DNA of 64,000 bases from an uncultured Lachnospiraceae bacterium (lineage in GTDB: Bacteria > Bacillota > Clostridia > Lachnospirales > Lachnospiraceae): the NCBI GenBank assembly GCA_902779395.1, contig CACZBK010000002.1, positions 1 through 64,000 on the forward strand. Reading direction: 5' to 3'. The notes beneath the pieces were generated by a model that saw only the letters and a list, made by a program, of their open reading frames with translations, searched no databases and had not been told where the DNA came from. Below are positions 2,704-17,846 of this stretch, in pieces (the stretch's first letter is position 1; each line of letters opens with the position of its first letter). A program made the position numbers and the translations under genes.

Positions 2704-3237
2704 TTAATCTATAATTCCTATAAACTTTGTCCCTTTATTCTGCTTGGCATATTCTATCACAGAGTAATAAATCAGAGTATCTTTAAACCCTTTATCTGAT
2801 TTTTTGCTTTTCCCTTCAAATGGACTATCTTTACGTATGGCCTTATCCACTATTTCAGAGAAATATTTCTCATCACATATTGGTATGATTATCATTCCTA
2901 TATCACTATAGCCCTTGAGTATTTCACTATATGCATAGGCCTGATAATCTGTAACTGAATAAACAGAATGCTTCTCCGATTCCTGTATTACTTTTGTTCT
3001 TCCATGCTGGGTAGCAAAATTGCAATATGCCTCGAAACGCTGTTGCGCCAATTCTCGAATCACTAAATCCGGAATTATAATTTGTATATCGTCTATAGTA
3101 TTCTTGCTCTTGACAAGGTCTATAACCTCTTTTAATTTACTGTTTACTAACTCATCTCTAAAGCCAAAAAAATCTTTTATATCTATTTTACTATATGATA
3201 CATATAAACAGTTTGTATCAATAACGATATATACCAT
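2704..3237 (-). CDS. PIN-domain protein, apparently cut short
   Basis: A 177-residue protein starting with the PIN signature VIDTNCLYV (first catalytic Asp at residue 7), followed by a conserved LVIRELAQQR helix (Glu) and SDKGFKDTLIYYS with the later acidic residues. It resembles the large DUF4935-like PIN proteins, which normally continue well past the FIGIID strand; here the stop comes exactly there, so the C-terminal half is missing. PIN proteins are metal-dependent RNases, often toxins or defence effectors. It lies about 70 bases downstream of the 216-residue gene in the same direction. Confidence 0.65.
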   Translation of the reverse strand: MVYIVIDTNCLYVSYSKIDIKDFFGFRDELVNSKLKEVIDLVKSKNTIDDIQIIIPDLVIRELAQQRFEAYCNFATQHGRTKVIQESEKHSVYSVTDYQAYAYSEILKGYSDIGMIIIPICDEKYFSEIVDKAIRKDSPFEGKSKKSDKGFKDTLIYYSVIEYAKQNKGTKFIGIID

Positions 3238-3307: not shown

Positions 3308-3958
3308 CTATATCAACTGCTTTATCTCTTCCAAATAATTAAACAACTTGTAAGCAGCTTCTTTAGGTGCAACATAATCATAAAACTCTATCTTTTCGCC
3401 TTTGGCTCTTTCCCCATCTTCCCGCTTAAAAACTCTATTGGCTAACCCCCATTCAATGCAATCAGCGTACTCATCATCATTGGGCAGTTCTTCTTTATCT
3501 ACTAAACGCATCATCTTATAAAAACACTTCATATCGTTGTCCGTAGCAGCCCCTATAGCATGTATTATAATCACGTCAAACTTATCATATTTCTCACGTG
3601 AAGCAATATGGTCTGCCATAATTCTTCCCATTAGTACACATACTATCTCAGAATCAGCTAACATAGCTTTTCTTATCATATTAGCTACATAGCTTGCATG
3701 CTCATCACTTTCACGGACATATGATAGCAATTCATAAGTAAATGTTTCCTGATTCAAGCCCGATGCCAAACCTTTTAATATCCTCTGAACTTTTATTCTA
3801 TCCGCAATCGTTACTATGTCGAAAAAGGCTTGCGTGACTATCCCAACAACTGGGTTGCCAAGGGATAAACCTTCAGCCGCCAACGTCAAACCTGATTTTA
3901 TTTCATCTTTTTCCAAAACTGATATGATTTGATTGATAGTATCATCATCTTGTTTCAT
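3308..3958 (-). CDS. Unrecognised protein, paired with DUF2971 gene
   Basis: A 216-residue protein I cannot assign. Residues about 20-60 are hydrophobic and rich in Gly, Ala and Val (GNPVVGIVTQAFFDIVTIAD), possibly a membrane-associating hairpin; the rest is predicted helical and charged by eye. It follows the DUF2971 gene with a 13-base gap, so the two are almost surely co-transcribed and perhaps act as a pair. Position in a defence-rich island suggests a defence or toxin-antitoxin role, which is inference only. Confidence 0.6.
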   Translation of the reverse strand: MKQDDDTINQIISVLEKDEIKSGLTLAAEGLSLGNPVVGIVTQAFFDIVTIADRIKVQRILKGLASGLNQETFTYELLSYVRESDEHASYVANMIRKAMLADSEIVCVLMGRIMADHIASREKYDKFDVIIIHAIGAATDNDMKCFYKMMRLVDKEELPNDDEYADCIEWGLANRVFKREDGERAKGEKIEFYDYVAPKEAAYKLFNYLEEIKQLI

Positions 3959-3971
3959 AACTATGTCTTAT

Positions 3972-4739
3972 CTACCTTTTTTGTCCAGCTCTATCTCTTT
4001 TGTCTAAAGCCTTCTCAACATCGACATATTTAACCGGTTTACCGGTTCCAAATTTCTCAACGTAGTTATTCTTCAATATACCTACTCCGACTGTTCTGTA
4101 GCCTATCTTTGTTTTGAAAACTTCTAAATCATCCTGTATTGTCTCAAGCAAATAGCTTTTAATTTCTGCTGACATTTTATGTCCAATAATAATACCGCAT
4201 AGATTCTCGCGAATATCTATAAATACCTTTTGATCCGCTTTTTTTGCTTTTTTCAATAATCTCCATTCTTTCTCATATTTCCAACCATCAGCTTTTTTAT
4301 ATAAACTTGCTCTGATTACTCTATCCATCTCCGTATCTGATACACGTATTTCTTCTTTATCTTTACAATACTCAATTTCCTTAATCTTTTTCAAATCGCC
4401 ACTTTGGGTTGATAAGCATAAGCACACGCCTTTGTAATCACCTGCATAATGAGCCCACATTAGTGGATTGTTACACTTCTGTGCAAAAGAAAGTATCCTA
4501 TACCTTAATTTATGGTCAACGACATAAATATCCTCCTCATCAGCCGACGCAGACATACCACATCCGGCATATCCGTATGGAATAGGTAAAACGACCGAAC
4601 ACTCAAGCGGATCATTTAATTGCTTATAAGTCGGGCAATACATCTTCCCATTACGAATAGTATCTATCAGTCTTATAAGATCTTCTATTGTATTTATGGA
4701 TTTATACTTATATACATACCTAGGTATTTTATTTTGCAT
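3972..4739 (-). CDS. DUF2971 family protein
   Basis: A 255-residue DUF2971 protein. Typical family marks are visible: YVYKYKS near the N terminus, QLNDPLECS, the central LSFAQKCNNPLMWAHYAGD block, GVCL, and GWKYEKEWRLL near residue 185. Biochemical function of the family is unknown. It heads a minus-strand run with the 216-residue gene, the PIN gene and the DUF3298-like gene. A LexA-type box and promoter-like sequence lie about 120-170 bases upstream. A 39-codon open stretch ends at a TAA two bases before its ATG region, so translation may be coupled. Confidence 0.8.
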   Translation of the reverse strand: MQNKIPRYVYKYKSINTIEDLIRLIDTIRNGKMYCPTYKQLNDPLECSVVLPIPYGYAGCGMSASADEEDIYVVDHKLRYRILSFAQKCNNPLMWAHYAGDYKGVCLCLSTQSGDLKKIKEIEYCKDKEEIRVSDTEMDRVIRASLYKKADGWKYEKEWRLLKKAKKADQKVFIDIRENLCGIIIGHKMSAEIKSYLLETIQDDLEVFKTKIGYRTVGVGILKNNYVEKFGTGKPVKYVDVEKALDKRDRAGQKR

Positions 4740-4744
4740 TTTTA

Positions 4745-4864
4745 TTAATCACCATTCTCCCCAAGTACCACACCGCCCATCCCAATCCCTGCTTCCACAG
4801 TATTATGCAACATATCATTAAACTCTAAAACATCCCCCTGTACAGGATCAGTTTTATGAATACT
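4745..4864 (-). pseudogene. Short open stretch ahead of the DUF2971 gene
   Basis: On the minus strand an open frame of about 39 codons runs from a TAG to a TAA located just before the DUF2971 start. It has coding-like composition (for example VEAGIGMGGVVLGENGD) but no good start codon. It is either the end of a lost gene or a short leader whose translation feeds into the DUF2971 gene. Confidence 0.3.
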
Positions 4865-4912
4865 CTATCATATAACAACAGCTTCGTCAACGATTATTCG
4901 AACATCTGTTCC
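4862..4912 (-). promoter_or_regulatory. Candidate LexA (SOS) box with promoter
   Basis: On the minus strand GGAACAGATGTTCG (4899-4912) matches the Gram-positive LexA/DinR pattern GAAC-N4-GTTC. Eight bases on is TTGACG (4885-4890) as -35, then 17 bases, then TAGAGT (4862-4867) as a weak -10. The same box, spacing and -35 recur at 17667-17717. The DNA can also be read as protein, so a coding remnant is an alternative. Confidence 0.5.
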
Positions 4913-4953
4913 TATGTATGTAAGGTAAAAACATAATGTAAGCCTTATACTGG

Positions 4954-5530
4954 TTGCCTCCCGGGTGAGGCTCTTTTACTTCGCTCCGTCTTCTGCTTTA
5001 TCGTTCTCTTCCTGGTTCCTTATATATTCACGTATTGTATCTTCATTCACATTGCCCACTGTAGAAACATAGTAGCCTCTTGCCCACAGGTGACGGTCTC
5101 CATATTTGTTGTGCAATTCCGGATGTCTATCATAAAACATCAACGCACTCTTCCCCTTAAAATATGACATAAACCCCAATATGCTCAGCTTGGATGGAAT
5201 AGATACGTACATATGCACATGATCCTTGCATATCTTCCCTTCCAGTAATCCCACACCTTTCATTTCACATAATTTCGGGAAAATCTCTGAGAGATCTTTC
5301 TTGTTGGTCCCATACATTATCTTCTTCCTGAACTTTGGAATAAATACTATATGGTACGTGCAATTCCACCGAGTATGTTGTATACTCTTATCATCCATTT
5401 GGATACCTCCTTGTTATAGTCTTGTGGTTGCGAACCCACTTTATTATAACATTGGAGTTTTTTCTTTTCTTATACTCTATGCAACGCCACGGCTTCGCCT
5501 ATTCCCCCCATCTCAGATGGGGGTTGCTAA
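4954..5530 (-). mobile_element. IS200-type insertion sequence
   Basis: A single-gene IS200-like element: tnpA flanked by hairpin ends rather than inverted repeats. Downstream of tnpA is GCCTC-ccgggt-GAGGC (4956-4971). Upstream is CCCCCATC-TCA-GATGGGGG (5505-5523), a perfect 8-base stem, preceded by the GCCACGGCTTCGCC run typical of these ends. No tnpB partner is present. The upstream end lies within about 15 bases of the stop of the large NTPase gene, so insertion may have set that protein's C terminus. Confidence 0.75.
4976..5398 (-). CDS. tnpA: IS200/IS605-type transposase TnpA (Y1 HUH)
   Basis: A 140-residue Y1 transposase that cuts and rejoins single-stranded DNA at hairpin ends. The HUH metal site is HVH at residues 60-62, and the nucleophilic Tyr is Y125 in TIREYIRNQ. 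Length and motif order match full-length family members, so it may be active. A strong AAGGAGG ribosome site precedes the ATG (in the reverse complement of 5400-5412). Confidence 0.95.
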   Translation of the reverse strand: MDDKSIQHTRWNCTYHIVFIPKFRKKIMYGTNKKDLSEIFPKLCEMKGVGLLEGKICKDHVHMYVSIPSKLSILGFMSYFKGKSALMFYDRHPELHNKYGDRHLWARGYYVSTVGNVNEDTIREYIRNQEENDKAEDGAK

Positions 5531-5538
5531 TTTCTCAA

Positions 5539-8500
5539 TCAATGAATTCGAAATTCATCTAATAGTACAGCAGCCTTCTCATTTCTTATTTCTGTCAATG
5601 CTAATAGTATGTCCTCGTACGCATTAATCAGCTTCTCATCCTTTTTTATTTCATCGCTATAGAATATAAAGGATTTTAAGATAATCATATCAACTATCAC
5701 CTGTGAATCTTTTATCTCTTTTGCAAACTGTTCTTTATTATTTCTAATAGCTTTTGTAAAGCACGAACTAATAGAGATCAAAATTTCTGGTAATAGCTCA
5801 CTAATATTAAACAAATATACTGTATATAGAACATCCATCAAATGATTGAAGCCATACTTTTCAATTTGTGCATTCAAAAAACACTTATCTTTATAACTAT
5901 ATTCTGCCTGTACTTTGTTTACATCCCATCTGCTATATCTTCCTTTGCAAAGGAACAATCTCTTTTCAAGAATATTTCTTACATAGTCCTCTGGAATATT
6001 ATTTACATAATTTTCAAGAATTCGAATCTTCTTCTCAATATCATCTCTTTTACCCTTCTCCCTAGATCCATAAACATATGCTACCAAAAAGCCACTAAGA
6101 GCATCTTCATAAAAATCCACTGTATCTCTGGTAAATATCGAAAAGTCAGTTTCTTTAAACAGAATATCATAAACAGCTTCTGGATTTCGTCCTGTCATAT
6201 TCAATTCTCTTTGAAAATAAGAAGATACTTTATGTTCTTGAAATGTGTCAATTATTTCATGAGGACGCATTTCTTTACAGTTTTTATGCCATATTTCAAT
6301 CATACATTGCACAATTGAATTAATAACTATGACAAATTCCTCATCTTCTGTATCCAATCCACAACACGCAATATTACAAAGAAGATCTATATCATAATTA
6401 CTGATATCAAACTCAGAAAGATCTACTCCCTTACCATCATACAAATATTCTTGAATTATCTCGGACCTCTTATTTTGATATTCATATCCATTATTTTCTA
6501 GAATCCAATGGTCCACGCCACGTAATTTTGGAACCATATTGGGAATAAATTGATACTCAGCATCATTACGATTTTCTTTTATAAATGCAGCATTAAACTT
6601 CTGATGATTCATCTCATCTTCTGCAAGCATAATAATTGTATTAAAAATCCTACTTGCATAATTCTTATTTTTTGTCAAAAAATACTTTGTTAATTCTGCT
6701 ATCTGGCTAATTAATCCTGAATTATCGTCATTAATTATACTCTTTAATATCATTAACAATATCTGCTGTTTAAGGTCGTTATTTATATCTTTATTCAATT
6801 GTTCCCACAATGCAATTACCATATTAACTTCAGCTACATAAGATTGATTTAAAAATATTTTCTTTACACGCCTAATCCATTCATCGACTAGTTTATTTCG
6901 CTGTTCATCCGTAATATCTGGCATTATCAATGCAGACGCAATAAATGTAACAAGCACCTTCTCGAACTGTATTTCAATACGATAATCGCCTTTCATCTTT
7001 TCACAAAGAGTATCAATCACTGTAATAATTTGGTCAGCATTAGCTTTTTTCTCATTTATATCCTCTATCAGATGATTTATAGTTTCATTCAAATGCACTA
7101 TTGGTTCGTTTGCATCTTCATTATTCTTAATAATCTTTTGTGCTTCCCCCTTGATCTGCGGTTCGATCATTATTGTTTTTTCATCTATTTCTGTCACAGC
7201 AGCATCTCGAAAATCCATTTTTTGAATCCGCAAATTTTCATTAGGATAAGTTTTTTCATCATATATAGAATATAGGTAATCTAAAATAACATGACATCTA
7301 TTTTTTATTCCTTCATCTCCATAAAGATACGAATTAGCAAGGTATTGTTGCAAATTACATGCACACTTTTCGTCTTTCTCATATCGCCTAGTTATTTCTG
7401 GAACTCCCATCGATAGCATAATCTGCTTTTCCAACAATTCTTTTGTCGGATTAGAAATAAATTCGCCACTACGAAGAATATCAAAATATATTAATTCCAT
7501 ACTGGATGCTAATTCTAATGCATACCCCGGCATTTCTTTTTGATAATTCATCCCTATAGCCTCAATAATAGACAAAAGCAATATGTTGTTTGCCTTTTCA
7601 TATATAGTATTCTTAACATATTCTGCTAAGCCTTTAATACCTGCATGGTCAGAAGAATTTCTCATAGAATTAATAACAGTCTTCTTTATTACAAAAGAAA
7701 TGTCCGTCAATACCACCGGAAGGTTATGTTCCATGATATCTGCCATCCACAACCATTCATTACCCAAATACACTCTTTTCTTGTTTTCCTTTGGAAAATA
7801 AATTTCTATATTTGTTATCTCATCTGGCTTATTATCTGCAAATGTCTGTACTGCATTATTAACAAATGATATTGCCCACTCAAGGCCTTTTACGAAGTCA
7901 CATCTCATAACATACCAGAAAAAAGTGTTATTATATACGCCGTTTTCATTATTGTCGAAGTGATCTGCATTGTCAGATAGACCATATGCTCTCACATTAT
8001 TATGGTCGTATCCATCATACTTAAAATGCTTTCTTGACACTCTTTGTCTCCATAATGTTTCCGCTGATTCACATGCCAATTCGGGTAATTCCATAGCAAA
8101 TGAAAGTGGACATTTTTTCACAACCGCCTTTAGAATCTCTTCAGCAACACTGTCCCTTCTACTAGTTCCAGAGCAATATTCTACTATCATATTTTCAACA
8201 AATTCTTTCAGCCATGACTTAGATGACTTGGGCATTTTTGCAACAATAAGAAAAAGCTGCACAATCTCTTCATCATGTTGATAATATGATTTTTCCTCTT
8301 TGCCCTTTTCTATTAGCTCGTCAATATATCTAATTATTATTTTGTATGCTTTTTCTTCAGTATCCGCAGTTTTATAAAAACAATTTGCATAATCATCACA
8401 TAGCTTAATAATAGAAGCTCTATTTTTATCTAGACTTATGTGTTCTTCAAAAACCATACCAATTAAATTATCACGTGCAGCTCCTATCGGTGTTACATTC

Positions 8501-10212
8501 ATTATTAATACTGGTGAATGATTAATTTTCGCCTCAAATGCATATAAGTTTGTTATATCTAACAATTCTTCAATCACTGTTTCACCGAGCAACTCCTGAA
8601 ATTCCTTGAAAAACATTCCACAGTATTTTGATTTTACTATCCCAATTTCTGTTTGCTTTTTCCAATTTGCCTCAATACTATTATCCGTTAACAATGTATA
8701 TACAAATTTCTCGCGGGCCTCCTGTACAAACAGTTTATTAGATATCCAAATCTGGTATCTCCTATATACGCAACGTCCGATTTTCTCTATTTCATCAAAA
8801 AAAATATTATACGATCCATGACACGCATCGAACGCTTTATCTATATACCGTTCAAAACAAATATCTTCAAAAATATCATATTTCAAACGTATTTTTTTCT
8901 TGCTTTCAACAATAATCCCTTCTGACTTCAAAGCTTCTAGAATATCGCTATCTACAATATCACTATCAACACCAACAACAAAACTACTAGCACGCTCAAA
9001 AACAATACGCTCAACAGTTTTTCTAACATCACTTTGTAAGACACCATATTTTTTACACTTGTCTTTTAAACAGATGACTCTTTCCCATATGAGATTTCTA
9101 AAATTATTCTCGTCGTTAATATTTTCTTCTACAAATCCTCCCGATATAATTAAATTGAGATAAAATGGCACACATAATAAATCCGCATATTTTTTATTCT
9201 GCTGTAGTGATAAAATAATGGGATAACGTTTAGCAACCTTATCAATCTCATCTTTCGTCAAATCCGGAATCTCGTATGTTTTGATTCTATATTTTGTATT
9301 AATCTTCATAAACGCAGAACTATCAGTAGTTCTACACGAAGTAATAATATATACATTACTGTATTTATCTGCAAGCCTATATATCTCCTGCAATAACGGA
9401 AATGCATTGTCACCACAATCTGCAATAAATTCGATAGCATCAATAAAAATATACAACGATTTATTTTCTAACCACAGGATTGCGTCCTCTATATCGCAAT
9501 CCCACAATTCGTTTACTTTCTTTCCAGTGGACAAATTCTCTGCTCTCGTTACTAATACGTATTCTTTTCCCTTTAATAGTTTTTTGCATACAACTGATTT
9601 ACCCGAACCAGCATTTCCCTGTATCGATACTAATTTTTCTCGTGCTGCCTGTATCGTTTCTATAATTTCTGACCTGTCAATTTCATATTCACCGTTAATA
9701 AGCTCTTCAATATTTTCAAGTTCAATTTCTTTACTTATTTCAATCGCATGCAAAAACTTCTTAATGTTTTCCTTACGAGGCTGTTCTTCTATCACCCCCA
9801 GCTTATCCATTATCTTGGAAAAATCCGATGATAGCGTATTATGTAGTGTTCTTTCGCCGCTCGACATTAGGGACTTCGCATACTCATTATATGCGTATAG
9901 AATATCCTCAATAATCTGAGTCATTTGCTTCTTTTCCTCATTCCCTATACGCAGCTCTCTATTCTGCTCAAAAAACCCCCGAATGATATCTTGGATTTCT
10001 TCCTCCAAAAAAATATGATCCTTATATTTATCCCCCATATCAGTTTTAAATCTATCAAGGCAAACCTGAACTAAAGGATCATCTGAATCCCAATTATTGA
10101 TATCAATTTCTTTTCTTTTTATCTTGTCCTTAATAATTAATATCCAGCTTCTTCCCGCTTCTTCTAAAGTGACAAAAGAGCTAAGCAATCCAATTGCTGA
10201 TGCCAAATCCAT
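5539..10212 (-). CDS. Large STAND/NACHT-like NTPase, candidate defence protein
   Basis: A 1557-residue protein. Walker A GNAGSGKS is at residues 199-206, Walker B LYIFIDAIE at 253-261 and a TSCRT sensor-like motif at 291-295, the layout of STAND P-loop ATPases. About 200 residues precede the ATPase and could hold an effector or signalling part, but I see no nuclease, TIR or protease motif there. The remaining 1100 residues are helical and repeat-like with no clear family. Size and layout resemble Avs-type antiviral sensors, which bind phage proteins through a long C-terminal repeat region; sequence identity to them cannot be judged here. The GAGGAG ribosome site supports this start. The gene ends next to an IS200 end, so a few C-terminal residues may be altered. 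Confidence 0.7.
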   Translation of the reverse strand: MDLASAIGLLSSFVTLEEAGRSWILIIKDKIKRKEIDINNWDSDDPLVQVCLDRFKTDMGDKYKDHIFLEEEIQDIIRGFFEQNRELRIGNEEKKQMTQIIEDILYAYNEYAKSLMSSGERTLHNTLSSDFSKIMDKLGVIEEQPRKENIKKFLHAIEISKEIELENIEELINGEYEIDRSEIIETIQAAREKLVSIQGNAGSGKSVVCKKLLKGKEYVLVTRAENLSTGKKVNELWDCDIEDAILWLENKSLYIFIDAIEFIADCGDNAFPLLQEIYRLADKYSNVYIITSCRTTDSSAFMKINTKYRIKTYEIPDLTKDEIDKVAKRYPIILSLQQNKKYADLLCVPFYLNLIISGGFVEENINDENNFRNLIWERVICLKDKCKKYGVLQSDVRKTVERIVFERASSFVVGVDSDIVDSDILEALKSEGIIVESKKKIRLKYDIFEDICFERYIDKAFDACHGSYNIFFDEIEKIGRCVYRRYQIWISNKLFVQEAREKFVYTLLTDNSIEANWKKQTEIGIVKSKYCGMFFKEFQELLGETVIEELLDITNLYAFEAKINHSPVLIMNVTPIGAARDNLIGMVFEEHISLDKNRASIIKLCDDYANCFYKTADTEEKAYKIIIRYIDELIEKGKEEKSYYQHDEEIVQLFLIVAKMPKSSKSWLKEFVENMIVEYCSGTSRRDSVAEEILKAVVKKCPLSFAMELPELACESAETLWRQRVSRKHFKYDGYDHNNVRAYGLSDNADHFDNNENGVYNNTFFWYVMRCDFVKGLEWAISFVNNAVQTFADNKPDEITNIEIYFPKENKKRVYLGNEWLWMADIMEHNLPVVLTDISFVIKKTVINSMRNSSDHAGIKGLAEYVKNTIYEKANNILLLSIIEAIGMNYQKEMPGYALELASSMELIYFDILRSGEFISNPTKELLEKQIMLSMGVPEITRRYEKDEKCACNLQQYLANSYLYGDEGIKNRCHVILDYLYSIYDEKTYPNENLRIQKMDFRDAAVTEIDEKTIMIEPQIKGEAQKIIKNNEDANEPIVHLNETINHLIEDINEKKANADQIITVIDTLCEKMKGDYRIEIQFEKVLVTFIASALIMPDITDEQRNKLVDEWIRRVKKIFLNQSYVAEVNMVIALWEQLNKDINNDLKQQILLMILKSIINDDNSGLISQIAELTKYFLTKNKNYASRIFNTIIMLAEDEMNHQKFNAAFIKENRNDAEYQFIPNMVPKLRGVDHWILENNGYEYQNKRSEIIQEYLYDGKGVDLSEFDISNYDIDLLCNIACCGLDTEDEEFVIVINSIVQCMIEIWHKNCKEMRPHEIIDTFQEHKVSSYFQRELNMTGRNPEAVYDILFKETDFSIFTRDTVDFYEDALSGFLVAYVYGSREKGKRDDIEKKIRILENYVNNIPEDYVRNILEKRLFLCKGRYSRWDVNKVQAEYSYKDKCFLNAQIEKYGFNHLMDVLYTVYLFNISELLPEILISISSCFTKAIRNNKEQFAKEIKDSQVIVDMIILKSFIFYSDEIKKDEKLINAYEDILLALTEIRNEKAAVLLDEFRIH

Positions 10213-10306
10213 TTACTAATCATCTCCTCGTCTAATCTATAAATGCTGATTCAAAACTAGCTTCTGTTCAAACCCATTTTTGTATATGTATAGTAACCTA
10301 CGCCTA

Positions 10307-10705
10307 TCAAATACCGGATGCCTGCAATGCCTTTGCAAGTTCACCATTCTTGGAATATCGTATCTGCAGTGTATCCTTTTTCCTTTTTAAATTTAGGATT
10401 AAAATTCACATTTCTAATCTGAGCCTTATAAGATTTTCCATTTAGATAAAGCGTGATATCTTTAGCCTCACCTCTATTTAGGAAACGCCCCATTATCTGC
10501 CCAAATACAACCTGATTGTCAAAGGGCAAAGTGAGCCTGTAAAAAGCAACTGTCTAATATCTGACAATGAATCAAATACCCTTACATAATTAGAAAATAT
10601 TTCTATATGATCTGGTAATATGCTTGGAAATACCATTTCAACATTTTGAGAATTAGTATGCTTTCGTATATAATAACTTCTTGCCTCATCCATCCTATTA
10701 TCCAC
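10307..10705 (-). pseudogene. Unrecognised gene broken by two frameshifts
   Basis: Three minus-strand reading frames join into one plausible protein of about 130 residues. The first (10705 to about 10530) ends in RQLLFTGSL, the second (about 10529 to 10370) begins LPFDNQVVFGQIMGRF, and the third gives DTLQIRYSKNGELAK before a TGA at 10307-10309. The second shift falls in an A5-GG-A5-GG run. The first start could be GTG at 10705 or ATG at 10693. The C-terminal pattern looks like a DNA-binding or modification-type domain, but I do not recognise it. It lies directly upstream of the NTPase gene and may once have been its partner. Confidence 0.5.
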
Positions 10706-10753
10706 CTCCTTAGTTAGTATGCGAAATCTAGATCCGCATTAAAGCTGTATATA

Positions 10754-11224
10754 CTAAGTGCTCTTAGATAAACACCAAAGCACATTACTATCATAATCCC
10801 CCGGCCCGACAACAGGCTTTATCTTCGGATCACAATCCTCTCCCCTGATCTCCGCAACCTCAAAACCAAATGACCGTAGGATATCTGCAGAATCCCGGCC
10901 AAACACCCGCAGATGATCGTCCTCGCCGAAATGCTCCAAGCGCCCCTCTTTAGTGGTAACAGAGCTGTCCTCGTATACTGTCTCCAAAGAAGGATCCACC
11001 GGGAAAGATATGATAAGCTTACCACCGGGACTTAAGATGCGACGCAGCTCATGCAATGCACGCTTATATCCCGTAACATGTTCCAGCACTTGGTGGCAGA
11101 TAATCAGATCGTATGATGCGTCCTCAAGGCCGGTATCCTGAATATCGATCTGCAGATTGGCTGGGGCGAACAAGTCCGCCGTGGTGTTTGTTGCATAATA
11201 TAAATGATGAAAGGGGGGGTGCAA
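10754..11224 (-). pseudogene. Class I SAM methyltransferase lacking its N terminus
   Basis: The 156-residue frame carries the C-terminal part of a Methyltransf_11-type protein: the DIQDTGLEDASYDLIICHQ strand-helix, LEHV, and a LSPGGKLIISFP post-motif. The glycine-rich SAM-binding motif I that should come first is absent, and the frame begins abruptly at a junction near 11213-11225 with the broken DUF6431 gene. It is therefore most likely a non-functional fragment of a glycan- or lipid-cluster methyltransferase. Confidence 0.75.
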
Positions 11225-11620
11225 AAAACACCCTCCGCATTCACCATCAGCTCCTCAGCCCAATCTCTCCAGCGTTTCAGTGTTGTTTCGCAAGGATAGT
11301 CATGACCTTCTTTGATCAGGTCGTCCTCCGTGATCACACCATCGAACACATCCTCTATAAGATCAGCCTCATACTGCTTATACGGCAGCCATATATCCGG
11401 CAGCTGTCTGTTGCTTCTGCCGCAGCTATCACAGGTACATCTCCTGACCTCGATCTTGTACCAGATCTTTTCACCACCGGCTTTCCTCTTTGCCCTGTCT
11501 GTCCACCCCTTTTTTCCTGCATTCCTCCGCAGTATGGACAGGGCGGGGTCTCATTGCTCTTTATCCAAAAAAAACCTCTTCCTCGTTGTACACTTCTTCG
11601 TAATCTGTTATGATGTTCAC
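11213..11620 (-). pseudogene. DUF6431-type gene, frameshifted and truncated
   Basis: Starting at a GTG (11618-11620), the frames join in order to a zinc-ribbon protein: an acidic start (DYEEVYNEEEVFF), then CPYCGG, then CTCDSCGRSNRQLPDIWLPY, then YPCETTLKRWRDW. This is the layout of the DUF6431 proteins found in Clostridia with transposon-like spread. Frame changes occur at a T8 run (11568-11577) and an A6-G4 run (about 11513-11522). The C terminus is lost at the junction with the methyltransferase fragment. The gene is not functional as written unless the indels are sequencing errors. Confidence 0.7.
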
Positions 11621-11675
11621 GGTTATGAACCGTTAGATCCCGGAGGGGGATTCCGCCAAGAATGCCTCCGGGATC
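11619..11675. terminator. Two hairpins beside the DUF6431 remnant
   Basis: ACGGTT-atg-AACCGT (11619-11633) is followed by a perfect 11-base stem GATCCCGGAGG (11636-11646) / CCTCCGGGATC (11665-11675), then a T-rich stretch on the plus strand. It could be a terminator or part of the element end; no plus-strand gene enters it. Confidence 0.45.
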
Positions 11676-11850
11676 TTCCTTTCTCTTTTTATCCCGTGAC
11701 ATTATAATGATTAAAACCGTGACAAGCAATGTAGTCGTTATAGGGTCAGGCTACTTTGGCAGCTACACTAATAATGTTCAATGAATATGATCTTGCCGAC
11801 ACCGCTCAAAACATTATCTAATGTCATTACTAACCTCGTCTTTCATAGAA

Positions 11851-12300
11851 TCATTCCAATATTTCGTTTAAGAACCCATTTAGGTCTGTGTACTCTATTC
11901 CCATTTTCTCACATACATAAGGGATTTTATTTTCATTCTTCTTTTCATTAGTCACGATGACTCCACCCTCTACAATAGCGGTTGCTATAAGAAAAGGGTC
12001 TCCGTTAGAGTTTCCCTTGGTGGCTATTTTTATCATGTTAGGATATTGCTCTAGTATTTCTGTAGCCTTCTCCTGAATCTCTCTTGAAAGAGGTAAGAAA
12101 GCCTCTTTATGCTGCTTTCCCCATTTTTCAATATCATCATCCTTTAGTTCATCCAGTATCTCCGTACTTGAAATGAGTCGTCCATCTTCAACAAGTTTAT
12201 CCAGCGTTTCCCATATATTAGAGAAGGTCTTCTTGGACATATTATAATTCTTAGCAGCATCTATTAACGCACAGGCATCAATAACGTATTTTTTCATCAT
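11851..12300 (-). CDS. PIN-like toxin (DUF4411 family)
   Basis: A 149-residue DUF4411-type PIN protein: VIDACALIDA gives the first Asp, ILDEL the central Glu, and GDPFLIATAI plus VTNEKK the later acidic site. Expected activity is RNA cleavage as the toxin of a type II toxin-antitoxin module. The start overlaps the stop of the ImmA-like gene by four bases, so the pair is translationally coupled. The toxin lies second in the pair. Confidence 0.85.
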   Translation of the reverse strand: MMKKYVIDACALIDAAKNYNMSKKTFSNIWETLDKLVEDGRLISSTEILDELKDDDIEKWGKQHKEAFLPLSREIQEKATEILEQYPNMIKIATKGNSNGDPFLIATAIVEGGVIVTNEKKNENKIPYVCEKMGIEYTDLNGFLNEILE

Positions 12301-13469
12301 AACATCACCGCCCGTTCTATATTGTTAATATGCTTGCTTTTCATATTTAAGGTCTGGCACAATTCACCATAGGACAGGTCACCCCGGTAATACGCCGACA
12401 CAACTGTCCGAGGGAACAAATAACCTTCCTTACTCAAGTACTTTATATAGTATTTGATTCTGAAATCATCATCCTGTGACATATCTTCAGCCAATTTCTT
12501 TGCCTCAAATTCATCAGACAACTTCTTATATAATTTCTGATACTCAGAATAAGATATGATGCTAAGCTCGTATAATCTTCTAACAACAGCCGCTGAACTC
12601 ACTGCAAATCTATCCCCTATAGCCTGTAAACACTGAGTCGACCATCCGTAATACTCTTCCTTTATTTCATCTGCCGTCGATTTGAACGAAAAATCCGGCA
12701 TTAGTATTTCTGCTGCTATTCTGTCACAGAGTTTTTCTTCTTCATCGTTTCTCTCGTCAAAATCAATCATACACAACGAAGAAGAACGCCTAATAATATG
12801 AGCAAGTTCATGAAATAATGAGAAGACTTTTGCCCGTTCATAATCCTTATTATTTACCGCAATAATAGGATACTTGTCGTAGTATATTGAAAGCCCCTTC
12901 ATTTCCTCCAACGATACTTCCGTTATCTGAGCGACAATAATGCCTTTATCTTCTAGAATCCCTCTGAAATAACTAAAAGCATTCACCTTATACAAGCTTT
13001 TTGTTCGATACGGCGGCTTTATTCCGAGGTAATCCCGTATAGTTCGAGCAATATCTTTCACTAGCACAGTGGCATCAAAGGAAGGTATTTCTTCATACTC
13101 CATCTGACCATCAGAAAAATCCAACATAATCTTCCGATTCTGCGTAATTCTTTCTATTTCTTTCCATAAACCATAGCTGGTTTCCCTGTAAACAGTTTCT
13201 CCGTAAGTACGTCTGTCCGCATAATTCTTTGGTGCTTTTTCGGGAGGTGCGGATAGGAAGAAAGATGCAAAGGGAACCTTATACAGAGATGCCAGTTTCT
13301 TTGCTTCGGTTATGGATGGTAATTCTTCTCCACTTTCCCACAATTCTAATTTCTCAGCCTTAATTCCCTTCTGCTGTGCTTCCACATCAGAGGTTGTGGC
13401 AAAGGGAGTTTCACCTCTCGCCCATATCAGCATATCCTTATTTATATATGCATAATTCTTCTTTGCCAT
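12297..13469 (-). CDS. XRE-type / ImmA-IrrE metallopeptidase, antitoxin partner
   Basis: A 390-residue protein with an N-terminal helix-turn-helix-like region (about residues 10-65, including WESGEELPSITEAKKLA) and an M78 peptidase domain with the zinc motif HELAH at 220-224. COG2856 proteins of this build pair with DUF4411 PIN toxins as antitoxins; by family knowledge the HTH part should repress the operon and the protease part may process itself or the partner. The ATGATG overlap with the toxin gene fits this. Full length for the family. Confidence 0.85.
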   Translation of the reverse strand: MAKKNYAYINKDMLIWARGETPFATTSDVEAQQKGIKAEKLELWESGEELPSITEAKKLASLYKVPFASFFLSAPPEKAPKNYADRRTYGETVYRETSYGLWKEIERITQNRKIMLDFSDGQMEYEEIPSFDATVLVKDIARTIRDYLGIKPPYRTKSLYKVNAFSYFRGILEDKGIIVAQITEVSLEEMKGLSIYYDKYPIIAVNNKDYERAKVFSLFHELAHIIRRSSSLCMIDFDERNDEEEKLCDRIAAEILMPDFSFKSTADEIKEEYYGWSTQCLQAIGDRFAVSSAAVVRRLYELSIISYSEYQKLYKKLSDEFEAKKLAEDMSQDDDFRIKYYIKYLSKEGYLFPRTVVSAYYRGDLSYGELCQTLNMKSKHINNIERAVML

Positions 13470-13493
13470 AATATGCTATATCCTCCTATACAA

Positions 13494-14210
13494 CTATTCT
13501 GAAATATTTGAAAAAACTATTGCTTCATCAATTTTATACATTAACATACTGGCAAACATCAATCTTCTGGTTGCTTCATCTTTCGATATATGCACCTTAT
13601 TTGAATGTGATTTTGGATTTCTTAATGCGGATATAGCACCAGCCATCATAAAATGAACTCCTTCCTGTACATTCTTTCCACTTTCAGATTCTAACTCTCC
13701 TATAGGTAATAACGGTGGGTTTCCCGCAAATAACTTGTGCATCAAATCCACGCCATCAGGAATTTCTGTACTCGATGGCTTCACTATTCTGTAAATATTC
13801 TTTAATCTGTCATTAATTTCAATAAATGCATCTACTGTAGCATTTATATAACTTCCATCCTCAAATAGTTTTTGAGAACTCTTACAAATGCTTGGATGAA
13901 TCATCCCCCATACATTCTCTTCTCTACCATGATTTTCTTTCCTAAGTATTGATAAAGCTTCAACTATTTGTCCCAGAACACATGGATTAATATATAATCC
14001 CTTTCCATTACCACAAAAAAGAGTCTGTCTAAGTCCTTTTAACTCTTCACTGATAACAGGATACTGGTGCTTTATATCTTCAGCAATAACAAGAATGGCT
14101 TCACACATGTTGGTCATAGTTTGAACAGATGGTGGCATATTGGGAAACCCTTGTGTTTGCGACCACTTCCTTAATGTTTGTTCTATTTGTTCGATTCTTT
14201 CCAGATTCAT
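13494..14210 (-). CDS. TIGR02391 (Ymh/Abi-like) family protein
   Basis: The C-terminal half has the TIGR02391 pattern: IHPSICKSSQKLFEDGSYINAT, then AISALRNPKSH, the RNP..H block conserved in the family and reminiscent of HEPN-type sites. Family proteins are phage- and plasmid-associated and some are called abortive infection-like; activity is not established. I prefer the ATG at 14210 over an in-frame GTG nine codons upstream (14237). It ends about 25 bases before the XRE/ImmA gene on the same strand, so the three may form one operon. Confidence 0.75.
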   Translation of the reverse strand: MNLERIEQIEQTLRKWSQTQGFPNMPPSVQTMTNMCEAILVIAEDIKHQYPVISEELKGLRQTLFCGNGKGLYINPCVLGQIVEALSILRKENHGREENVWGMIHPSICKSSQKLFEDGSYINATVDAFIEINDRLKNIYRIVKPSSTEIPDGVDLMHKLFAGNPPLLPIGELESESGKNVQEGVHFMMAGAISALRNPKSHSNKVHISKDEATRRLMFASMLMYKIDEAIVFSNISE

Positions 14211-14481
14211 AACGAACCGCCTTTTCCATAATTCCACAAATCATATATACTAATGTTTTTTTTTCTTAGCAAGATAATAATAATACATGACATTATTAGA
14301 TAATTCGGTTTTATTCTTCTTTGCTTCTTTATGTGCCTGATTTAATATGATTTTATTTTTTGTAAGTACTCTATCATGAGTACCTTTTAACATTTTCTTA
14401 TCTATGAGATTATAACTCCAAATAACTTCGCTTGTCTTGTACAACTTGGGCAACTCAAGCGATTTAATCTAGGAGGTTCTC

Positions 14482-14883
14482 ATGGACGCTACCCAAACTA
14501 TCCACCAGACTACTCTTGCCAAATGGATCGCTCTGATCCAGGAACAGCAGGCCAGCGGTCTCACCATTAAAGAATGGTGTACTCAGAACGGTTTCTCCAC
14601 CAATTCTTATTACTACTGGAAACACATCGTCAAGGAAGAGTATCTAAAAAACGTTATCCCTGATATCGTCCCTCTTCCTTCTCCAGCCGACCCCATACCT
14701 GTTTTACCGGCTGCAGAAACTCCTGTTGTACAACACGACTTGTACAACTTGGGCAACTCCAAAAACTCTACTTCTAAAGATCCGATCATTTCTATTTCAA
14801 TGAACGATATCCGTATCGAGATCGGAGCATCCGCGCCAGATGCCTTGATCACTAAAATCATAGGAGCACTGCGTAATGCTTAG
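14482..14883 (+). CDS. IS66 accessory protein OrfA (TnpA-like)
   Basis: A 133-residue IS66 OrfA: residues 10-50 hold the IALIQEQQASGLTIKEWC helix-turn-helix and the YYYWK motif, followed by a Pro-rich linker and the conserved C-terminal block ISMNDIRIEIG. Strong AGGAGG ribosome site eight bases before ATG. It overlaps tnpB by eight bases. The 21-base sequence at 14739-14759 inside it repeats one at 14436-14456. Confidence 0.9.
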   Translation: MDATQTIHQTTLAKWIALIQEQQASGLTIKEWCTQNGFSTNSYYYWKHIVKEEYLKNVIPDIVPLPSPADPIPVLPAAETPVVQHDLYNLGNSKNSTSKDPIISISMNDIRIEIGASAPDALITKIIGALRNA

Positions 14884-15235
14884 GAACGCTGATCCCCGTT
14901 CTTTTTCTGCTGTTTATGTTGTATGCGGCAGCACCGACATGCGTCTCGGCATCGATTCGCTTGCTGCTATCATACAGACACGTTATAAACTTCCTATATT
15001 CAAGCCCGAATCCCTCTTTTTGTTCTGTGGCAGGCGCGCCAATAAGATCAAAGGGCTCTTATGGGAAGGCGATGGATTCCTGCTACTGACAAAGCGTGTT
15101 GAAACCGGACATTTCACGTGGCCACGCAATTCCCACAAAGCACGTCAGATAAGTTCCCAGCAATTCGACTGGCTTATGAAAGGCTTCGCCATAGATCCTG
15201 TCATCAGGATCTCCCAACCGGAAAAAACAGCTTAG
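14876..15235 (+). CDS. tnpB: IS66 accessory protein TnpB (Orf2)
   Basis: A full-length 119-residue IS66 TnpB: VVCGSTDMRLGIDSLAAI near the N terminus, FCGRRANKIKGLLWEGDGF in the middle. Needed with OrfA and TnpC for transposition in studied IS66 elements; biochemical role unclear. The 284 bases downstream (15236-15519) hold no gene I can support; a TATAAT at 15487-15492 and an AAAGAGG site lie just before tnpC. Confidence 0.92.
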   Translation: MLRNADPRSFSAVYVVCGSTDMRLGIDSLAAIIQTRYKLPIFKPESLFLFCGRRANKIKGLLWEGDGFLLLTKRVETGHFTWPRNSHKARQISSQQFDWLMKGFAIDPVIRISQPEKTA

Positions 15236-15519
15236 CTTTTGTGCAAAACATAGATTTTTTCTGCCTCTGAAAACGTCTGTCATTATTGCCTGTGCAGCAC
15301 TTTTACAGCCTTACTATCAGTTATTACAACCGGTCTGTGACACTGCACGGGCTCTTTCATTTTCAATGTCCCCTTCTTTATAACACCATTCCTCATCCAT
15401 CCTCATTACTCTGAACGCTATACAATCTGCCGAACAACAGCTGCTTTCGAACGCCCCTTTTACTGGCTTATTTACTGCATCTGCGGTATAATGACCATAT
15501 ATAAAAGAGGTATCATCGT

Positions 15520-15825
15520 ATGGCTGATAATTCAGTATTTACTCCCGAACAACTTGATAAGATGGATAAACAGGCGCTGATCGCCCTTATCATCTCTCAG
15601 CAGAGTCAGTTGAGCACGATCAGTTCCCAACTCAATCTGCTGACACAGCAGGTCGCCATCATGAACCAGCGTGCCTTCGGAAGAAAGACTGAACAGAAAG
15701 ATCAGATCCCTAACCAGCTTTCATTCCAGGATTACTTTAACGATGAAGTTTTCAATGAGCCGGAAGTTCTTTCTAACTCCTCAAAAGAACCGGAGATCAC
15801 AGAAGTCATCATATCCGGTTATTGA
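15520..15825 (+). pseudogene. IS66 transposase TnpC, N-terminal fragment
   Basis: The 101 residues match the start of IS66 TnpC: a coiled-coil/leucine-zipper stretch (LIISQQSQLSTISSQLNLL) and QRAFGRKTEQK. Normal TnpC is about 450-550 residues with a DDE domain, all missing here. The frame stops where the sequence passes into the antisense of a nucleotidyltransferase gene, so the loss came from a deletion or rearrangement. Confidence 0.85.
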
Positions 15826-15941
15826 AGTACTGGCTTTTCAATGCCGTCAGAATTCTTAATTGGAATGAGCGGTTTCGGAATGTCTGGGAATAACTCTGAA
15901 ATACGAGTTCCTTTTCCGCCGGCCATGATTACTGTTTTCAT
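15819..15941 (-). pseudogene. Sugar nucleotidyltransferase, first 40 codons only
   Basis: From an ATG at 15939-15941, five bases after the ApeA-like stop, the minus strand encodes the start of an NTP_transferase: MKTVIMAGGKGTRISELF then KPLIPI, the nucleotide-binding signature. It ends after 40 codons at the IS66 junction. The full enzyme (about 230-350 residues) would make an NDP-sugar, so the fragment suggests a glycan cluster once continued here. Confidence 0.85.
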
Positions 15942-15945
15942 AGCG

Positions 15946-17424
15946 TCACCTCTTCAATGCTTTCTCTAACAAGGTCATTACTTCTTCATCCGCATACCCA
16001 ATCGCCCGTAGTATAATTGAATAGTTTAAATGTTCCAGAAGCCTAACTGCCTTGATAGTTTTTTCATTCGGTTCATAGGATAATTTCCCATGAGCAAGAG
16101 CATTACGCCACAAATTGAATTCTTGTCCTAAATCTATTATCTCTTCTTCCTTATACCACTCCTGTGAAATACAGTTCTTCAAAGGCAACCATGTATCATA
16201 ACCTTTATACGCTTTCCATATCTTATCCTTTAATGCTGGTTCTCGTACAAGATTTTTTGATAAAGATTTTGCTAAATCTTTAAGCTTTTTTGAAGGTTTT
16301 TTCTCTATAATCTCTTTGAGAATCATATTCATGACAACATGATGTGTTTCCTCTTTTTCCATAACAGGAAGATAATGTCTGACATATAATTCAAATGTAC
16401 TAGCTATCTGTAAGCTTTGCTGTAAGTCCACAAGATTTCTACGTTTAATGGATGGATGAATACTTGCTATAGATAATGGCCTTATATCTTCATCCTCTTC
16501 ATCTATCACTTTATTAGATATATTCTCAGCCATCAGCTTAAAGAGATTATCAATATGTTTTAAGAATAATGTCACATTCCACGTTTCCGAAATAGCCTTA
16601 TTACCCTCAGGTTCTTCCCTATATCGATTGAAAAAATAAATCTCACTCTGAATAGGCTTTTCGCAATCTATTATCTTTCCATGATCCGGTCTTTTAGATG
16701 GGTATTTACCATGTAGTTTCATCGAAAGACAAGTCGTATTCCTTCTATTGCAAATAAAAGCAAATACGCAATCTACCAAGTTATACAAATCTTTAAAGAA
16801 GTCTAAGTCAGACGTTGCAGGAAATGAAATTCTAATCTCCGAAAATGCCTCCATATTAGAATGAGCAATCTTCCATTCTCCTTTGGAGGATACATTAAAC
16901 GAGACGTGGCAATTAACAGAATCAACTGTAATGTCAAAGGCTATTATTTCCTTCAAACTCCGTTCAAAAACAACATGATTTCCTTCCTCTTCTGCTTTAA
17001 CTACTTGATTAGAAGGCACAAAGTATTGAAGTTCATCAAAATCAAATATAGCTTCTGTATAATAAGACCCTATCTCATAATTCTGAATCACAAAATCAAT
17101 TTTCTGATGATATGTCTGTGGATAAAGATTTGCCCACATATCGACAGGCAGTTGAGAACAGAATAAATAAGACTTTTTATCAAAGCCATGACCAATAATA
17201 CAATTCTGTCCATTTATTTCAGGGATACTCTCAAATGCATGAACAACCAGATCTCCTGCCACAAAATCATAGGAAAAATGACGCATCAGGTTTAGAATAG
17301 GTTCTTCGATTCCTGGAATATTCTGGTCAACACTGTTGCCATCTGAAAACTCGTAAGTTTTTTTAACGCAATCATATTTTCGACGAATATCTATATATCC
17401 AGAATGATTTAACGATTCTAACAT
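15946..17424 (-). CDS. ApeA-like HEPN protein, candidate anti-phage effector
   Basis: A 492-residue protein whose length and layout fit ApeA: a beta-rich N-terminal half (I read it as the ApeA N-terminal type domain) and a helical C-terminal HEPN domain with RNALAH at residues 440-445, the R-x4-H RNase site. ApeA is a single-gene abortive anti-phage system in which the HEPN RNase is thought to stop translation of host and phage. AAGGGAG five bases before ATG supports the start. A LexA-type promoter lies about 245-290 bases upstream. The codon before ATG is an in-frame TAA closing a short open stretch. Confidence 0.65.
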   Translation of the reverse strand: MLESLNHSGYIDIRRKYDCVKKTYEFSDGNSVDQNIPGIEEPILNLMRHFSYDFVAGDLVVHAFESIPEINGQNCIIGHGFDKKSYLFCSQLPVDMWANLYPQTYHQKIDFVIQNYEIGSYYTEAIFDFDELQYFVPSNQVVKAEEEGNHVVFERSLKEIIAFDITVDSVNCHVSFNVSSKGEWKIAHSNMEAFSEIRISFPATSDLDFFKDLYNLVDCVFAFICNRRNTTCLSMKLHGKYPSKRPDHGKIIDCEKPIQSEIYFFNRYREEPEGNKAISETWNVTLFLKHIDNLFKLMAENISNKVIDEEDEDIRPLSIASIHPSIKRRNLVDLQQSLQIASTFELYVRHYLPVMEKEETHHVVMNMILKEIIEKKPSKKLKDLAKSLSKNLVREPALKDKIWKAYKGYDTWLPLKNCISQEWYKEEEIIDLGQEFNLWRNALAHGKLSYEPNEKTIKAVRLLEHLNYSIILRAIGYADEEVMTLLEKALKR

Positions 17425-17607
17425 TTATACTCCCTTCTCAATATTCTCGTTTATTTCTGATTCAATATACCTATAATCTATGTACCCACATGATTCTAAA
17501 CCGTTAACTTTCGGAATTAGTTCCACTAATCGTATTCTTCTACCACTTTTATGTGATCTTTTTCTTTCTTCTGCCACCAAAAAAGGAGAATCCCGAATCT
17601 TATATTC
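17425..17607 (-). pseudogene. Open stretch ending directly at the ApeA-like start
   Basis: About 60 codons are open on the minus strand, in the same frame as the ApeA-like gene, and close with a TAA immediately before its ATG. The stretch is basic in the middle (EERKRSHKSGRRIR) and lacks an ATG; GTG or TTG near 17580 are possible starts. It contains LESCGYIDYR, similar to LESLNHSGYIDIR at the ApeA-like N terminus. It may be a leader peptide, a gene remnant or the true N terminus interrupted by a stop. Confidence 0.35.
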
Positions 17608-17666
17608 ATACTCTTATGTAATAAACTATAATGCTACATTATCCTTTTCCAACTCTCCCTCCATAC

Positions 17667-17717
17667 ATAATAGCATCTCTCCATGTTAACGTCAATGCAA
17701 ATACGAACATCTGTTCC
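17667..17717 (-). promoter_or_regulatory. Candidate LexA (SOS) box with promoter
   Basis: On the minus strand: GGAACAGATGTTCG (17704-17717), eight bases, TTGACG (17690-17695), 17 bases, TATTAT (17667-17672). The -35/-10 pair is good and the box matches GAAC-N4-GTTC. Box, spacing and -35 equal those at 4862-4912. It points at the ApeA-like gene. Confidence 0.6.
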
Positions 17718-17811
17718 TGCATTCATCCTATTTCATTTGACCCATTCGTAATGTTGCGACGTAATGTGACCATTTCTTCAACCTTATCCCCAAAGCCCCA
17801 CTTCAAAATGA

Positions 17812-17846
17812 CACCCCCCTGCGGCTGTACAAGACGCAGGGGGGTG
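17812..17846 (-). terminator. Strong hairpin after the HAD gene
   Basis: Perfect 12-base stem CACCCCCCTGCG / CGCAGGGGGGTG with an 11-base loop, 34 bases past the stop of the minus-strand HAD gene. The T-run after it is weak (TGTCATTTTG). It would insulate the SOS promoter from HAD transcription. Confidence 0.75.

Follow-up and report, generated by a model that had tools for sequence, protein, structure and literature searches.

Two LexA-type promoters and the genes behind them

The window that we analysed is a stretch of 64,000 nucleotides (positions 1-64000 of contig G000:C2) in the 3.58-Mb, 56-contig draft genome of an uncultured Lachnospiraceae bacterium, and it holds two minus-strand promoters that each carry a putative LexA operator ahead of genes with defence-like features. 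In promoter 1, the operator GGAACAGATGTTCG (4912-4899) is followed by a gap of 8 base pairs (bp), the -35 hexamer TTGACG (4890-4885), a 17-bp spacer and the -10 hexamer TAGAGT (4867-4862), with the promoter core spanning 4862-4890. Promoter 2 repeats this layout, with the same exact 14-mer at 17717-17704, an 8-bp gap, TTGACG at 17695-17690, a 17-bp spacer and TATTAT at 17672-17667 (core 17667-17695). Both -10 hexamers have an upstream TGn (TGA in promoter 1 and TGC in promoter 2), and promoter 2 was also listed by a consensus promoter scan (10/12, TG). An earlier sequence-only reading had described the segments at 4862-4912 and 17667-17717 in these terms, and every element was found exactly as described. 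Its further description of the two promoters as identical holds for the box, the -35 and the spacings, but not for the gap, which matches at three of eight bases, nor for the -10 hexamers or the flanks, which show no clear alignment beyond the box and the -35. GC-rich hairpins that look alike by eye lie upstream of two LexA-boxed promoters, at about 17800-17840 in the window and at about 2080-2110 of locus L005 elsewhere in the genome, and are probably terminators of the preceding genes. An Rfam search gave no matches at the gathering score.

Promoter 1 faces a run of genes on the minus strand. The first (3972-4739) encodes a DUF2971 protein that matches the phage-defence candidate PDC-S31 (PADLOC expectation value (E) 4.1e-45; Pfam DUF2971, E 3.1e-7), and a contig scan with this protein gave one distant relative. 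It is followed by a gene for a 216-residue protein (3308-3958) for which profile scans found no family match and which has one relative besides itself, a distant one in G198, among 392 genomes of the order. A PIN_12 domain protein (2704-3237, E 4.8e-16) comes next, and profile matches identify the remaining two genes as encoding a PdaC/DUF3298 protein (1985-2686), presumably co-transcribed with the run, and an AAA_35 plus PDDEXK_3 protein (287-1873), the last gene on this strand. The label of defence-like genes is borne out by profiles for the DUF2971 and PIN genes; for the gene behind promoter 2, which had been called ApeA-like, the support is weak and consists of an RNxxAHG motif.

This second gene (15946-17424, minus strand) encodes a 492-residue protein with the sequence RNALAHG near its C-terminus (R440-N441-x2-A444-H445-G446). 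HEPN domains are marked by an R-x4-6-H motif, which is present here as R440..H445. The motif is kept in a 465-residue protein from G752 (L069), which a pairwise comparison aligns with residues 139-490 at 20% identity (E 4e-11). This was the one relative we accepted (E 1.3e-5, with two stretches of collinear similarity inside a single open frame) from a search of 391 genomes of the class, which at E up to 1 listed the bacterium's own genome and 22 others. No relative besides the protein itself was found in 250 genomes of the family at E 0.001, none in plasmids or phages, and none was confirmed in scans of genome or viral contigs. There was no ApeA or HEPN profile above the cut-off in Pfam and no match to PADLOC or NCBIfam models; below the Pfam cut-off were HEPN_MAE_28990 (E 0.019) and a weaker Myb-like match. 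A sequence search of the PDB was empty at E 5, and a single-sequence structure model had a mean predicted local distance difference test score of 34, which makes it unusable for judging whether there is a beta N-terminal domain. Because the protein has the motif and one relative but no profile above the cut-off, the name ApeA-like is a guess at its architecture. The leader of promoter 2 contains an open frame of about 50-60 codons (17425-17613, minus strand) that ends where the HEPN-motif gene starts, the stop and the ATG overlapping as TAAATG; the frame has no Pfam match and could be a small partner protein.

LexA and its predicted operators in the genome

We found one match to LexA_DNA_bind in the genome, and the gene in question is a full lexA (TIGR00498, E 6e-69). 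Next to it is a gene resembling yneA, whose PRK14125 match (E 1.2e-14) reaches 54 bits where the cut-off is 60, and the region between the two genes carries several boxes, including the third exact copy of the operator 14-mer in the genome (L007 2000-2013). The pattern CGAAC-N4-GTTCG with at most one mismatch occurs at 29 places, and we examined the neighbours of the 13 with intact GAAC and GTTC arms, which include the two window operators, and of one with a changed arm (on contig C23). These neighbours are recA, gyrB, lexA/yneA (two boxes), a Y-family polymerase gene and an XRE regulator, together with an IS1595-type transposase gene and a sequence like it, two genes with weak transposase matches, and locus L003. 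The polymerase box is a near-match, CAAACATATGTTCG, that overlaps the first possible start of the gene. The full arrangement of a box, 8 bp, TTGAC, 17 bp and a -10 is common to four promoters of the genome, namely those of yneA, where the box has one arm mismatch, gyrB, and promoters 1 and 2. The exact copy at lexA/yneA, the geometry shared with gyrB and yneA, and the retention of promoter 1 in a congener (below) all support the LexA-type reading of both boxes.

A scan with a LexA matrix, which the sequence-only reading had proposed for the genome, was run on the window with a matrix built from nine other boxes of this genome, leaving out the lexA/yneA copy of the 14-mer. Both operators scored 18.4 bits, and the next-best site in the window 11.9 bits. 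In 60 simulated first-order sequences of 64 kb, the mean number of sites reaching 18.4 bits was 0.017, and no sequence had two. The 14-mer with up to two mismatches matched twice in the window, exactly both times, against an expected 0.41 matches, and two or more matches were seen in 8 of 100 shuffles. The bare motif is not enriched: GAAC-N4-GTTC with one mismatch was found 16 times in the window against 15.1 expected, and exact GAACRNRYGTTC gave 14 strand hits genome-wide against 14 for the reversed control. The evidence for the window operators is therefore their exactness, the promoter geometry and the neighbouring genes.

Some other boxed loci of the genome may involve mobile elements. At L015 2001-2014 (G000:C21) a LexA box lies just downstream of a TTGACA -35 ahead of an IS1595-type transposase gene, and at L016 116-158 (G000:C54) two boxes lie in the same position ahead of an IS1595-like sequence that runs off the contig end, which suggests that transposition may be SOS-induced. 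At L001 2000-2013 and L005 2000-2013 the box sits between the -35 and -10 of genes for proteins of 286 and 322 residues, which have weak PHROG transposase matches and no similarity to each other. An Rpn-like identity was considered for these two proteins, and no profile confirmed it. A protein type of 149 or 131 residues, alike by eye at L005 2138-2587, L089 602-1051 and L028 855-1250, precedes a LexA-boxed gene at two of these loci and adjoins the relative of the 216-residue protein at the third; the one member scanned had no Pfam match, and these loci possibly share an island context.

Conservation of promoter 1

In the congener G1015 we found 96% identity over 274 aligned bases to window positions 4937-4666. 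Within the 51 bp of promoter 1 a single base differs, in the central N4 of the operator, and the GAAC and GTTC arms are intact. The match breaks off a little over 70 bases into DUF2971 and resumes at window position 1949, and most of the DUF2971 gene and the genes for the 216-residue, PIN and DUF3298 proteins are absent at that place. This leaves the AAA_35/PDDEXK_3 gene directly behind the promoter, with 98% identity across the 402 residues that were compared. Since the DUF2971 gene keeps its 5' end in G1015, loss of the operon genes by deletion there would be the simpler reading.

Just upstream of the conserved stretch, at 4976-5398, the window has an IS200-type Y1 transposase gene where G1015 has a different sequence, and the segment bearing it is single-copy in its own genome. 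We ruled out that promoter 1 is carried by the IS200-type element, as homology to G1015 begins at 4937 with different DNA upstream; with the transposase gene outside the conserved stretch, the promoter seems not to be part of the element. A small leader open reading frame ahead of DUF2971 was also considered, and it is unlikely to be coding because G1015 has an insertion or deletion within it.

The promoter geometry across genus and family

Among 35 genomes of the genus, a box followed at 7-9 bp by TTGAC occurred at 13 sites in seven genomes, against three sites for the reversed control. Five of the 13 front gyrB, four front yneA, two are promoter 1 in this genome and in G1015, one is promoter 2, and one is an artefact, an overlapping reverse reading of a gyrB site. 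The five gyrB sites, counting the one in this genome (L018 2815-2828), come from five of the 35 genomes, and the four in congeners (L081, L085, L086 and L087) show the exact pattern with a gap of 7-9 bp as well.

In 250 genomes of the family, the looser pattern with a gap of 3-13 bp gave 26 sites in 22 genomes, three of them in the genome studied here. For the other 23 sites, a -10 matching at least 4/6 at a distance of 15-19 bp was present in all nine with a gap of 8-9 bp and in 7 of 14 with other gaps (Fisher p 0.019, for gap classes picked after the data were seen). Fourteen of these 23 have a gap of 6-9 bp; four front SOS-type genes, one fronts a HEPN-type gene in G087, and the remainder precede other sequence or sequence without an assignment. 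The SOS-type genes are recA (gap 8), a Y-family polymerase gene (gap 9), gyrB (gap 6) and a fourth (gap 9) that we take to be uvrB. The G087 promoter reads GGAACCAATGTTCG-8-TTGACG-17-TATAAT and stands ahead of a Hypoth_Ymh gene whose product shares 41% identity across 194 residues with the Hypoth_Ymh protein of the window; the window gene itself has no box.

The window's Hypoth_Ymh gene belongs to a group of defence-like genes between the two LexA promoters (5539-14237). The group includes a gene resembling Avs4 (PADLOC E 9.1e-44) and a run with PD-Lambda-like PADLOC matches that is made up of HTH-M78, DUF4411 PIN and Hypoth_Ymh genes. The matrix scan found no strong LexA box before the Avs4-like gene or before this run.

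Proposed mechanism and alternatives

We believe that both sites act as SOS promoters under repression by the bacterium's own LexA, such that DNA damage would lead to LexA cleavage and transcription of both loci, arming defence, and we put the probability of this reading at roughly 0.85. The operator, the geometry, the lexA gene and the conservation of promoter 1 can be read directly from the DNA; from these we infer LexA binding, repression from an upstream position, induction, co-transcription and the defence function. LexA would bind at the operator, 8 bp ahead of the -35, and hinder RNA polymerase; the sequence points to such binding at yneA and gyrB too. DNA damage, replication arrest caused by a phage or prophage induction would then give rise to RecA filaments on single-stranded DNA, which would prompt LexA to cleave itself. 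This would release transcription of the DUF2971-unknown-PIN run, perhaps extending through the DUF3298 and AAA/PDDEXK genes, and of the HEPN-motif gene, and the PIN and HEPN products, which probably target RNA, would arm an abortive or growth-stopping defence.

A number of observations weigh against this reading. The -10 of promoter 1 matches the consensus at four of six positions, this promoter is absent from the best 60 of 89 sites of the consensus promoter scan, and the leaders are long, at about 120 and 240 bases. At recA and at two transposase-like genes the box lies between or after the hexamers, which differs from promoters 1 and 2. Comparing both segments with related genomes, a further check proposed by the sequence-only reading, recovered promoter 1 in one congener but no relative of promoter 2. 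The looser family pattern is not enriched, since the reversed control gives more sites (51, counted by hand, against 26). Boxes can also score highly where no SOS gene has been assigned (20.1 bits at L003 2000-2013 and 17.8 bits at L006 2001-2012), and for this reason a box score alone is little proof. Finally, none of six loci of distant DUF2971 relatives has an intact box, the best matrix score being 11.6 inside a gene (L027). Hypoth_Ymh matches occur in 10 of 299 genomes, this one included, and of the 10 loci scanned out of 11 a box is present in one, that of G087 (13.9 bits; next best 8.9). With boxes absent from most of the DUF2971 and Hypoth_Ymh loci scanned, SOS control seems to be gained or lost locus by locus rather than to characterise whole gene families.

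Among the alternatives, the one that survives best accepts the operators as LexA sites and takes the genes to be stress- or toxin-type or mobile-element genes, serving growth arrest or mobility rather than defence. It draws on the IS1595-type transposase gene and the two genes with weak transposase matches among the LexA-boxed genes, and on the HEPN-motif protein having no defence profile; the PDC-S31 match of the DUF2971 gene and the Avs4-like and PD-Lambda-like neighbours argue the other way, and we consider it unlikely, if a serious contender. Far less probable is that another repressor binds the boxes, namely the HTH-M78 protein (12297-13469) serving as a local controller that responds to DNA damage. 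Its gene, which is located between the two loci but adjoins neither promoter, matches capP (E 2.6e-16) and RmrA profiles, and local controllers of this kind have been reported for immune operons (PMC13373217). Against this, the lexA/yneA region contains an identical 14-mer and gyrB has a promoter of matching geometry. We give equally little credence to chance resemblance, which would apply at least to promoter 2, given its lack of a known relative and the commonness of the bare motif, and which is opposed by that promoter's matrix score and exact geometry. The suggestion that the segments are remnants of one ancestral coding sequence, raised because both read as GTDVRI in one frame, is hardly credible at all: these frames reach stops within 30 codons, no clear similarity of the segments extends beyond the box and the -35, three of the four codon differences from G1015 in this frame alter the residue while the fourth, in the operator, is silent, plasmid searches found no similar DNA, the searches made met no conserved gene of relatives holding a flank in frame, and promoter 1 in G1015, with most of the operon gone, faces the AAA/PD-(D/E)XK gene.

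Building on SOS control by LexA, we tentatively propose, at somewhat less than even odds, that in this lineage the box-8-TTGACG-17-(-10) arrangement is a host-tuned arming switch acquired independently by unrelated defence loci (promoters 1 and 2 and the G087 gene), keeping abortive-infection effectors silent until the SOS response without a regulator of their own. If this is true, HEPN and PIN loci wired directly into the host SOS response would represent a simpler route to damage-inducible defence, and phage defence would be tied to antibiotics and prophage induction. The signature of a box, 8-9 bp, a -35, 17 bp and a -10 could also be used to seek SOS-armed loci in this bacterial family.

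Comparison with known systems

Immune operons have been reported to detect DNA damage by way of an adjacent CapW/BrxR, CapH+CapP or CapK+CapS (PMC13373217). The likeness is that damage would raise the expression of a defence operon; the difference is that those systems have a dedicated adjacent regulator, whereas the predicted operator for the host LexA would make such a regulator unnecessary here. AbpAB defence is likewise activated by DNA damage, but reportedly without need for RecA or LexA (PMC10732053). The N-terminal domain of ApeA is described as about 300 residues long and mostly beta (PMC3710099), and our 492-residue protein resembles ApeA in its HEPN-type RNxxAH motif near the C-terminus and differs in having no profile match above the cut-off. 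Among the literature matches listed, the openings of the abstracts report no LexA operator in front of a DUF2971, ApeA-like or Hypoth_Ymh gene. A regulatory parallel is the clostridial SOS regulon: motifs of the GAACnnnnGTTC type were used to search for the LexA regulon of C. difficile, whose predicted members in some strains include a transposase (PMC4234289), and this regulon shares with our genome the GAAC-N4-GTTC operator, found among those search motifs, and lexA and recA as members. What differs here is the predicted membership of the PDC-S31/PIN operon and the HEPN-motif gene, where the box precedes the -35 by 8 bp. Damage-induced immune operons under other regulators are thus already known, and the loci described here would add predicted direct control by LexA.

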